Shown piece by piece: positions 3,433-62,321 of a DNA stretch of 64,000 nucleotides. A program made the position numbers and the translations under genes. Source of the stretch: Alphaproteobacteria bacterium. GTDB taxonomy: Bacteria > Pseudomonadota > Alphaproteobacteria > Micropepsales > Micropepsaceae. Within the stretch, counting starts at the first letter, position 1. Every line of letters begins with the position of its first letter. The DNA lies in assembly GCA_013389115.1 (NCBI GenBank), contig JACADY010000015.1, positions 1-64,000 on the forward strand, written 5' to 3'. Below the pieces are notes generated by a model, which ran no database searches, had not been told where the DNA came from, and was given only the letters and a program-made list of their open reading frames with translations.

Positions 3433-5079
<1,647 letters not shown>

Positions 5080-8683: not shown

Positions 8684-8712
8684 GGTTGGGACCTTGTGAA
8701 GCATATAAGAAA

Positions 8713-8951
8713 CCTCGCCCTGAGGCGGCCGCATCTGCGGCCCTCGAAGGATGAGGGCCATCCACCTTATCCGTCATCCTCGAGCGGCGAAGCCTGCGAA
8801 GAGGATCCAGCGCAAAAGATCTGGATTCTCGTCGCCGGCTTCGCCGCTCGAGAATGACGCAGTCGTGTCATGGCTGGCGTCGACCGGGCCATCCATTTTT
8901 CACACGCCGCCTCATCCTTCGAGGGCGCTGACGCGCCACCTCTGGGCGAGG
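8713..8951. repeat. REP/BIME-like cluster A including a large hairpin
   Basis: 8713-8757 and 8910-8951 are inverted members of the cluster B/C/D family; 8771-8809/8820-8858 is a 39-nt imperfect hairpin (~35/39 paired). Confidence 0.8.
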
Positions 8952-8971
8952 ACTGGCTTTGTCATCCCGCC

Positions 8972-18866: not shown

Positions 18867-20198
18867 TCATCCTGCAAAACAGCGGCGGAAGGTCTTCATT
18901 AGATTGCGATCGCCCTTCAGGCGCAGGCGGCCCTTCAGCATCGTCTGAAAGAGGCCCTGGCGCCTGCCGATGAACCGCAGCCAGGCATCACCATCGACAC
19001 TGATCTCAAGGCCGGCCTTGCCTTCGAGGCCTTCCGCGATGTGCAGCTTGCCCTTGTCGATGGCGACCGTCGCGTCCAGATTTTCGCGCCCTTTGAAGCG
19101 GAAGTGGAAGACTTGCGTAACGTCTTTTGCGTTTCGCCATTGAAAGCCAAGCCGCAGCCCCATGAGGAATGCACGCAAGGACTGCGGCTCGATCGTGCGG
19201 CGCACCCGCTTCACGACCTTGTTCGGGAAGCGGGCGGCATAGGCCTCGGCATCCGAGCCCTTGAGAACATAGACCGTTTCGGCCTTTTCCTGGAGCGGTG
19301 TCAGAACTTCGCGGCGATAGGCGACGCGATCATCGAGATAGGGGCCGATCACATCTTCGCCCGCGGGGCAAACGGCCAGACAATAGGCGGCCTTGTAGCC
19401 AGGCTTGAAGGACAGGCTTTGCCACATCGAAACGGTTTCACCGTCCGATACCCGGTTGCGGTAGTCGGCCGCGCTCTTGCTGTCCGCCAGCTCCTCGACC
19501 CAGGATTTGAAGCCGCCCAGGAATTCGCGGTAGTTGTGCGTGTAACAGGCAGCGAAATTGAACTCACCCAAGGGGCTGAGCGCGCCAACAGGGCACGCCG
19601 CCACGCAGAGCTTGCAGGAAAGGCAGGGATTGTACTCTATCGGACCCGACTCCGCGTCGATCTCCGCATCGATGAGCACGGTGTCCAGCAAAACAAAGCT
19701 GCCAAAGCGGGGATGAATCACGCTGCGATGGATGCCCATCCGGCCAAGCCCGGCCGCTTCGGCCATCGGCTTGTGGCCCACAGGCCAGGTCTTGCCGGGG
19801 AAATCCTGCGCCTCCATGGGAAAGGCCGCGACCGCGTTGAGCGCCCTTACGCCCTTTTCCGCGAGCGCCTTGACGATGTCGCGCGCGACCGCGTTCACGG
19901 TGTCATAGGTTTCGTGAAACTCCGCGTTCGCGATCGAGCGCACAGGCGTGCGCACGGCCTCGCGGTTCATGCGGCAGAGGATCGAGAGCAGCACGCGCGT
20001 GCCTGGGAACACCTTCAGAATATCGGCGCGCTGGGCGGCGACTTCCGGCCGCGAGATACGAATTGCGCCTGCGTCATCGGCGCCGCAGTCGAGGGCGAGT
20101 TGCTTCAACGCCTCCAGAGTGAGACGCGGCGTGCCGGGCGCCGCCAATTCACGCTTCTTCGCCAGCTTCTGGACGGTCGGGTGTTCCTGAAGTGACAT
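18867..20198 (-). CDS. 4Fe-4S ferredoxin-type protein with C-terminal SCP2-like domain
   Basis: CLSCKLCVAACPVGAL ferredoxin motif plus distal CLAVCPAGEDV; C-terminus FKGRENLDATVAIDKGKLHIAEGLEGKAGLEISVDGDAWLRFIGRRQG resembles SCP2. Confidence 0.85.
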   Translation of the reverse strand: MSLQEHPTVQKLAKKRELAAPGTPRLTLEALKQLALDCGADDAGAIRISRPEVAAQRADILKVFPGTRVLLSILCRMNREAVRTPVRSIANAEFHETYDTVNAVARDIVKALAEKGVRALNAVAAFPMEAQDFPGKTWPVGHKPMAEAAGLGRMGIHRSVIHPRFGSFVLLDTVLIDAEIDAESGPIEYNPCLSCKLCVAACPVGALSPLGEFNFAACYTHNYREFLGGFKSWVEELADSKSAADYRNRVSDGETVSMWQSLSFKPGYKAAYCLAVCPAGEDVIGPYLDDRVAYRREVLTPLQEKAETVYVLKGSDAEAYAARFPNKVVKRVRRTIEPQSLRAFLMGLRLGFQWRNAKDVTQVFHFRFKGRENLDATVAIDKGKLHIAEGLEGKAGLEISVDGDAWLRFIGRRQGLFQTMLKGRLRLKGDRNLMKTFRRCFAG

Positions 20199-20230
20199 GC
20201 GATGCTCCTGGCCGAAAGATTTTTATATGC

Positions 20231-20249
20231 ATATACATATATTGTATAT
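20231..20249. promoter_or_regulatory. AT-rich inverted repeat, candidate operator in divergent MarR/ferredoxin promoter
   Basis: ATATACA-TATAT-TGTATAT, perfect 7-bp arms, between starts at 20198 (-) and 20290 (+). Confidence 0.55.
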
Positions 20250-20289
20250 ACACTTAACTGCGGATAGGATGCCAGTCAAGGAGCGCGTG

Positions 20290-20868
20290 ATGGCAAAACG
20301 GGACGCAAGCAGGGCGCCTGGAGCAACTCCCGACCAGAAAGAAACGGGCAATGACCGCAAGTCCTCGTTCGGTCGCGCTTCTTTTGGTCGAGCCGGTACC
20401 CATTTCGCCGAAAAGCGCTCTGGCTGGCAGGTTTGCGATTGCACCTGCCTTCGCCTGCGAAAGACGTCGCGCATTGTCACGCAGATCTATGACGAAGCCC
20501 TTGCTCCGCTCGATCTGACCATCACCCAGTTCAGCATCATGGCGCACCTCTTCGAGCTCGATGGCTGCGCGATCGGCCGACTTGCCGTGCTGCTCGTCAT
20601 GGATTCAACGACACTTACCCGCACCCTCAAGCCTCTGGAGGCGCGCGGACTCATCGAAAGCCGGGTCAGTACGCAAGACAAGCGCCGCCGCGCCCTTCAT
20701 CTCACGCCCTTGGGCCGCTCAAGCTTCGAGAAGGCGCGCCCGCTCTGGCACAATGCCCAAAGAAAGCTTGGAGAAATCCTGGGCGTTGCGGAGGTCGAGG
20801 CGCTTAACAGCAGGCTGGAGCAGACAATAGACGGCCTTGGCTCCCTTGCCCCTCGGCTTGGGGATTGA
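20290..20868 (+). CDS. MarR family transcriptional regulator with repeat-derived N-terminal extension
   Basis: CTCLRLRKTSRIVTQIYDEALAPLDLTITQFSIMAHL...DSTTLTRTLKPLEARGLIE; ATG 20290 (GTG 20287 also in frame). Confidence 0.9.
   Translation: MAKRDASRAPGATPDQKETGNDRKSSFGRASFGRAGTHFAEKRSGWQVCDCTCLRLRKTSRIVTQIYDEALAPLDLTITQFSIMAHLFELDGCAIGRLAVLLVMDSTTLTRTLKPLEARGLIESRVSTQDKRRRALHLTPLGRSSFEKARPLWHNAQRKLGEILGVAEVEALNSRLEQTIDGLGSLAPRLGD
20321..20421 (+). repeat. ~101 bp palindrome-containing dispersed repeat, copy 1 (inside MarR CDS)
   Basis: Ungapped alignment to 56069-56169, ~82/101 identical by eye. Confidence 0.8.
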
Positions 20869-54255: not shown

Positions 54256-54495
54256 CTCAGAAATATAGGGTCGCGAAAGGGGTGGGGGATAACCCGGCCT
54301 GCAGGGGAGCGCTTTCAAGCGCACTCACGGCCTTGAGGCCGGGCCTGTAATTCGCGCGATTGCTATCGTGAGATGCCTAGCGAGCCGCATGGCGCCATCC
54401 CCCTCGGGACCCAAGACGCTGGTGGATAAGTGGCGCGTTTCTAGCCCATCGGGGAGATCAAGGGAATCCCTTTGTTGGGGGGCCTTCGGGCTTCG

Positions 54496-54612
54496 CCTCA
54501 CCCTTCGAGGGCCGCGAAGGGCGGCCACCTCTGGGTGAGGACTTCCTTTAGCAAACCTGCAAAGACACCTCATCCTGAGGTGCGAGACGAAGCCGAGCCG
54601 CGAAGGATGCGG
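54496..54612. repeat. BIME-like inverted pair of REP-type elements (cluster B)
   Basis: 54496-54540 (CCTCACCCTTCGAGGGCCGCGAAGGGCGGCCACCTCTGGGTGAGG) and 54568-54612 (CCTCATCCTGAGGTGCGAG...CGAAGGATGCGG) in opposite orientation. Confidence 0.8.
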
Positions 54613-56030: not shown

Positions 56031-56068
56031 GGGTGCTCCAAAGGCGATCGTCAGGGAGGCGAACTCTA

Positions 56069-56169
56069 GAGCATTTCCCGATCACATAGAATCGGGAAAT
56101 GCTCGCAAGTCGTTGTTTGGTCGCGCTTCTTTACGGCGAACTGGTACCCACTTCGCCGAGAAGCGCTCT
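56069..56169 (+). repeat. ~101 bp palindrome-containing dispersed repeat, copy 2 (intergenic)
   Basis: Perfect 14-bp inverted repeat GAGCATTTCCCGAT-CACATAGA-ATCGGGAAATGCTC followed by CGCAAGTCGTTGTTTGGTCGCGCTTCTTTACGGCGAACTGGTACCCACTTCGCCGAGAAGCGCTCT. Confidence 0.85.
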
Positions 56170-56200
56170 TGTCAAGGCCAAAGGGGCTCACAAGGCCGCC

Positions 56201-59046: not shown

Positions 59047-59147
59047 CCTCACCCTTCGTCGGCCTCGCGAAGGCTCGCATCTCTGGGTGAGGTCGCTATT
59101 AGTTTCCTCATCCTGAGGTGGCGCGTCAACGCCCTCGAAGGATGAGG
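59047..59147. repeat. BIME-like inverted REP pair (cluster C), followed by GC-rich palindromes to ~59430
   Basis: 59047-59092 and 59106-59147 inverted; then tggatggcccgcttccgcgggccatgacg and gtcatggcccggcttgaccgggccaacca. Confidence 0.8.
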
Positions 59148-59456
59148 CTGATGGGAAAGATGGATGGCCCGCTTCCGCGGGCCATGACGGGTCGGGGCGT
59201 GCACGTGGGTTCCTCCCCTTTTGTCATGGCCCGGCTTGACCGGGCCAACCATGCTTCGCAGGCCGCCCCCACCCGAAGCGCTGAGACGCGCTTCGAGCTC
59301 CCCAAGGGGAGGTGGTTGGCATGAACAACCCCTCCCCCGTTCGCGGGGAGGGGCAGGGGGGAAGTTTCGGCCAGAAAAGCGATCCCCACCCTTTGCCCTC
59401 CCCTTTGCAGGGGGAGGGAGGGACGTACATACGCCCCGCATGGGAGGCGGTTATGC

Positions 59457-62129: not shown

Positions 62130-62167
62130 GGCGGCGCCTGATTGCGCGATGGGTTGGAGCCGTGCGG

Positions 62168-62269
62168 CCTCCCCCTTCGAGGGCCGCGAAGAGCGGCCAC
62201 CTCTGGGTGAGGCTTTGACATGAGACCTCATCCTGAGGCCCGAGCCTTCGCGAGCCTCGAAGGATGAGG
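62168..62269. repeat. BIME-like inverted REP pair (cluster D)
   Basis: 62168-62212 and 62226-62269 in opposite orientation, then ggtggatgacccgctttcgccgggccatgacg. Confidence 0.8.
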
Positions 62270-62321
62270 CGGACCGATAAGGTGGATGACCCGCTTTCGC
62301 CGGGCCATGACGATCGGGAAA

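Follow-up and report, generated by a model that had tools for sequence, protein, structure and literature searches.

The MarR-family regulator gene at positions 20290..20868 on the forward strand of the 64,000-nucleotide stretch of DNA analysed here (the window) contains, within its reading frame, a copy of a dispersed palindromic element, and a second copy lies in frame inside addA elsewhere in the same genome. By its architecture the element resembles the CIRs, or Caulobacter CcrM-associated intergenic repeats (Chen and Shapiro 2003; description taken from Delihas 2007, PMC2229807). We consider the probable explanation, with a probability of about 0.86, to be the frame-neutral insertion of a non-autonomous, TA-flanked, CIR-type palindromic element into marR and addA, where it has been tolerated.

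Within the window, positions 20321-20421 align without gaps to an intergenic repeat at 56069-56169, with exactly 82 of 101 positions identical (blastn E 9e-19), as a sequence-only reading of this DNA had estimated; a repeat search found no direct repeat in the window longer than this pair (104 nt, 81%). Chance similarity of the MarR segment to the intergenic repeat was ruled out by the E value of about 1e-18 and the existence of about 60 copies. A covariance model places the MarR copy at 20318..20423 on the forward strand (E 1.2e-21), where it encodes GATPDQKETGNDRKSSFGRASFGRAGTHFAEKRS. Its core, GAGC...GCTC, occupies 20321-20420, with TG flanks where other copies carry TA. The stem-loop, already described as decayed in that reading, is eroded in this copy, with a fold z-score of -0.8 compared with -7.7 for the intergenic copy, and the GANTC site has been lost, as have the hairpins.

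The product of the MarR gene is 192 aa long with the repeat included, and matches the Pfam MarR family (PF01047, E 3e-12) over residues 76-132. Conceptual translation from ATG 20290 gives MAKRDASRAPGATPDQKETGNDRKSSFGRASFGRAGTHFAEKRSGWQVCDCTCLRLRK..., and the frame stays open through the repeat. A ribosome-binding site, AAGGAG, is located on the forward strand at 20278..20283, six bases 5' of that ATG. The in-frame starts available to the ORF, at 20197, 20269, 20287 and 20290, all lie 5' of the repeat. The repeat end and the conserved motif CTCLRLRK are separated by seven codons (GGC TGG CAG GTT TGC GAT TGC) that include no start, and inspection of the sequence found no in-frame ATG, GTG or TTG either inside the repeat or between it and that motif. 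The earlier proposals that the repeat is embedded in frame and that no start follows it are both upheld by these observations.

The native N-terminus ahead of the insert, MAKRDASRAPG (20290..20320, forward strand), was delimited from the sequence and from the tails of homologues. Joining the flanks without the insert gives MAKRDASRAPGWQVCDCTCLRLRK, about as long as the tails of the longer-tailed homologues, and to judge from sequence, MAKRDASRAPG followed by GWQVCDCTC makes a natural tail. In an AlphaFold model, the folded winged-helix domain begins directly after the insert (20443..20865, forward strand); residues 1-50 are predicted to be disordered, and the domain past residue 52 is modelled with confidence. 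Among MarR homologues from the same order and elsewhere, mostly 4-24 residues are found ahead of the conserved Cys, versus 50 here. The element segment is absent from the homologues compared, and none was found that shares this N-terminus without similarity to the repeat. One homologue (L051) has a longer tail through the chosen start, and that tail lacks the repeat. No MarR orthologue was found in the single congener, G001.

An AT-rich TATATGCATATACATATATTGTATATACA block upstream of the gene, at 20226..20256 with no strand assigned, is a putative operator. AT-rich blocks resembling TGTATATGCATATATATT are located upstream of the start in several MarR homologues (L032, L033, L034, L047, L055, L063 and L036), and the block in the window is probably a conserved operator of the MarR gene. 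The similar blocks ahead of the starts of several homologues speak in favour of 20290 as the true start region. Blocks resembling TATATGCATATACATATATTGTATATACA also precede MarR homologues from distant bacteria (L032, L034, L036).

The draft genome (2.79 Mb in 83 contigs, 88% complete; the genomes of relatives of the host span 1.8-5 Mb) contains 18-20 close copies of the element by blastn and about 60 recognisable copies by covariance model (E<1e-3), most of them 105-107 bp long over the CTAG-to-CTAG model. The copies form two main subfamilies, both with a core of 100 bp. The ends are YTA-GAGC at the 5' side and GCTC-TAR at the 3' side; 5' CTAG or TTAG is present in 21 of 53 copies and 3' CTAG, CTAA or TTAG in 23 of 53, with the remaining ends degenerate. 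The consensus folds as two hairpins and a linker (RNA fold). The intergenic copy in the window, delimited by the covariance model at 56066..56171 on the forward strand, is near consensus and has a 5' TA. By RNA fold its first hairpin is at 56069..56104, with GAATC (a GANTC, or CcrM, site) at the loop at 56089-56093, and its second at 56123..56166, both on the forward strand. Many copies have GANTC at the loop of the first hairpin; it recurs at one fixed position in roughly half of subfamily 1 and, among the subfamily 2 copies sampled, in the majority, and its density in the window is 1.2 per kb. A CcrM-like methylase is encoded in the genome, as indicated by a RAMA-domain protein over the cut-off and a 368-aa DNA methylase with a DPPYNLQL motif.

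Three frames are open in the near-consensus copy. An extra 22-nt hairpin, TCCCCGCCTTCGCGGGGACATG, is present near the 3' end in about half of the subfamily 1 copies; it is missing from the MarR and AddA copies, which have the short form and a 3' end of TG, not TA. The extra hairpin is nested at one fixed point (about position 83) in L070, L071, L073, L074, L075, L066 and L067, giving a mosaic-element structure. Most sampled members of subfamily 2, which is the more abundant, have a stop in the frame used by the genic copies, and no wholly internal copies were found among those examined. A search for two transposase families, IS630 and RAYT (PF13358, PF01797), found neither in the 88%-complete genome. 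Beyond this genome, a full-length relative of the element (76%) occurs in Xanthobacter, and relatives are found in Hyphomicrobiales records. The window also contains a second dispersed repeat family, with motifs CCTCGAAGGATGAGG and GCCACCTCTGGGTGAGG, at 8709-8960, 54495-54549, 59064-59251 and 62167-62318.

Only the MarR and AddA copies are wholly inside coding sequence, among the 53 copies classified. The addA copy, at G000:C65:33956-34061 in the gene at G000:C65:31552-35046, is 89% identical to the intergenic one. The gene product is assigned to TIGR02784 (addA_alphas) with 1170 bits against a cut-off of 861, and is full-length at 1165 aa, with the nucleotide-binding, V, VI and nuclease motifs all present. 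The element accounts for residues 804-837, AFPDHGESGNTRKPLQDRASLQRTGTHFAEKRSG, which fall after helicase motif V at residue 773 and before motif VI at residue 871. This insert of 34 residues is absent from all 29 aligned orthologues of the same order, and the alignment is unbroken on either side of the insert point, where the loop varies in length. The AddA of the congener G001 is 48% identical to the one described here. A misassembly at addA is unlikely, given that the two flanks are parts of a single unbroken conserved gene. The AddA and MarR copies use the identical strand and frame of the element, and their peptides are basic and closely similar. The addA copy appears to be the younger of the two, and the MarR copy, with its eroded hairpins, the older.

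These features would be accounted for if a CIR-type element with a 100-bp core multiplied to about 60 copies in the genome, presumably mobilised by a transposase acting in trans. In one subfamily the short form carries open frames. Its core and a 2-bp TA duplication would together make 102 bp, or 34 codons, so that an insertion inside a gene would keep the reading frame; the form with the 22-nt hairpin would add 124 bp, and would therefore shift the frame. The TA target duplication is itself deduced from the length and from other copies, as the genic copies end in TG. Two landings would have survived, an older one near the 5' end of marR and a younger one between addA helicase motifs V and VI. 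Both would be translated in the same element frame, each adding a closely similar 34-aa peptide, which in MarR would form a disordered tail preceding the winged helix and in AddA would enlarge the inter-motif loop. Most new insertions would survive only between genes. The two insertions most likely persist since they do little harm, and would thus be near-neutral; any benefit to the host would be hypothetical.

A third gene, encoding an EnvC-like M23 peptidase, possibly carries a weaker copy of the element. A diverged copy (covariance model E 2.5e-9) at G000:C10:2663-2766 (L161:2663-2766) overlaps the 5' end of this gene in antisense orientation and supplies the N-terminus of the protein, the n-region of the signal peptide, just before the hydrophobic core; no start codon was found downstream of the copy in this gene. 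Other candidates were rejected. Among the apparent in-frame copies within long open frames in other alphaproteobacteria (G463, G295 and G375), a better start lies past the element in the genes for an aldo/keto reductase and a solute-binding protein, the copy at the aldehyde dehydrogenase gene is probably upstream of a better start, and the open frames of the remaining candidates are antisense or spurious. The AztC gene similarly has a better start 3' of the element, and in G000 the long open frames that span the copies at C53 and C71 run antisense to genes for GST and PMT. Searches of plasmid and phage proteins returned nothing decisive.

Several copies meet genes at their ends. An overlap with a neighbouring stop codon of exactly 4 nt, in which the stop uses the terminal TA of the element itself, is found in 14 of 53 copies (overlaps include L074:4195-4198, L075:4225-4228, and L071:4090-4093 and 4213-4216). 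Outside this genome (CP000782.1:195329-195432, NZ_CP090350.1:339779-339865), Xanthobacter and Methylobacterium show comparable overlaps with the stop codon, of 2 nt, and matches there under annotated genes were discounted as genic copies, as they overlap the genes by these 2 nt only. This pattern suggests that the element may insert at the TA of stop codons. Element copies (L080:4107-4147, L076:4084-4122) also provide the terminal 12-14 codons, together with the stop, of genes for a LysR regulator and a PMT-type glycosyltransferase.

The MarR copy might instead be a 5' leader, with translation beginning 3' of it at a non-canonical codon and the repeat not coding at all. Homologues mostly begin 4-24 codons before the conserved Cys, and apparent in-frame copies elsewhere in alphaproteobacterial genomes did turn out to be 5' leader. 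However, a good ribosome-binding site and an ATG lie 5' of the copy, no ATG, GTG or TTG lies 3' of it, the native N-terminus joins the downstream flank as a natural tail, and the internal AddA copy would be left unexplained; we regard a leader as quite improbable. Decay of marR and addA as pseudogenes, in which the frame stayed open by accident after insertion, would agree with the congener having no MarR orthologue, but is very improbable given that both ORFs run their full length without a stop, encode intact domains and score normally for codon use. It is hardly credible that the repeat is a coding fragment that spread out of marR or addA and did not enter them as an element: the shared sequence is all that speaks for this origin, whereas the segment is missing from the homologues of either gene, and other alphaproteobacterial families have related elements, equal in length and alike in their ends, outside these genes.

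The insert could also have been domesticated, with the extra basic peptide, an mRNA hairpin or a GANTC site regulating MarR or AddAB. The changes in the MarR copy bear on this possibility, since 10 of the 19 fall at third positions; 8 of the 19 are synonymous, compared with 5.3 expected (P 0.11), which weakly suggests selection for coding. That reading has to take into account that a near-consensus copy is already open in three frames, and synonymous changes are not in excess in the AddA copy. The similarity of the basic peptides in MarR and AddA and the CcrM-like methylase encoded in the genome are also compatible with domestication. Yet the hairpins and the GANTC site are gone from the MarR copy, the MarR tail is predicted to be disordered, and conservation across species cannot be shown, so that a regulatory role seems unlikely.

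Tolerated, frame-neutral insertion of a CIR-type element, the preferred reading, can be set beside known repeat systems. By described architecture the element fits a CIR-like designation. The known repeats are about 106-110 bp in length, and the copies here are similar in size; both have two hairpin arms and a linker (here the two arms of the intergenic copy given above), a GANTC site in one hairpin loop, TA at both termini and many intergenic copies in a CcrM-bearing host. The term "CIR-like" is used rather than CIR because of the genic copies and open frames, and because the comparison with CIR1-CIR4 is one of described architecture. PMC2229807 describes CIRs as never intragenic and as having multiple stops in all six frames, and later papers may report genic CIRs; here, in contrast, three frames are open in one subfamily, and two copies sit in frame within genes. 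Absence from genes and stops in six frames are treated as a reported observation on CIRs and not as a defining feature.

The Rickettsia palindromic elements (RPE; Ogata 2000) serve as the model for in-frame palindromes in PMC10969869 and PMC2229807, and a similar mechanism in other prokaryotes has been called conceivable (PMC10969869). The likeness to RPEs proposed in the sequence-only reading gains from the same-frame addA copy and the orthologues without the insert, yet the element fits the CIR type and is probably not an RPE. It shares with RPEs and the Wolbachia palindromic repeats a size of about 100-150 bp, a conserved peptide, and in-frame entry into conserved, mutually unrelated genes at places where insertion is tolerated. 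It differs in that nearly half of RPE copies are genic, versus 2-3 of about 60 here, in that its host appears to lie outside the Rickettsiales (the AddA and CcrM are alphaproteobacterial), and probably in its sequence family. By analogy, the element would work as an RPE does, but it is not assigned to that group. It is rather doubtful that a lineage of CIR elements constitutes, in an alphaproteobacterium outside the Rickettsiales, an independent RPE counterpart, a frame-neutral, stop-free mobile peptide that is added routinely as a 34-residue module and selected to stay translatable.

Rhizobial RIME and Brucella Bru-RS, compared by description, are also palindromic repeats found between genes in alphaproteobacteria, and measure 103-106 bp (lengths for Bru-RS, PMC10800456; intergenic location, PMC2267715); they are reported as intergenic, whereas the element described here is also genic. 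The 107-bp form of Correia and the ERIC elements, with in-frame fusions, are likewise small TA-ended elements, and the genic form of Correia is the shorter, stop-free one, as here. These belong to other proteobacterial classes, and have one terminal inverted-repeat stem rather than the two arms of the present element (PMC2229807).

In-frame palindromic elements have so far been described mainly from Rickettsiales, and CIR-type elements have been regarded as confined to the spaces between genes, with every frame closed by stops. With a conserved repair helicase and a regulator as carriers, another common type of alphaproteobacterial repeat would be able to lengthen proteins. The 102-bp arithmetic offers a simple and testable rule for which forms of the element may enter genes, and as CIR-type repeats are reported to be abundant across the alphaproteobacteria, a class-wide survey would be feasible.
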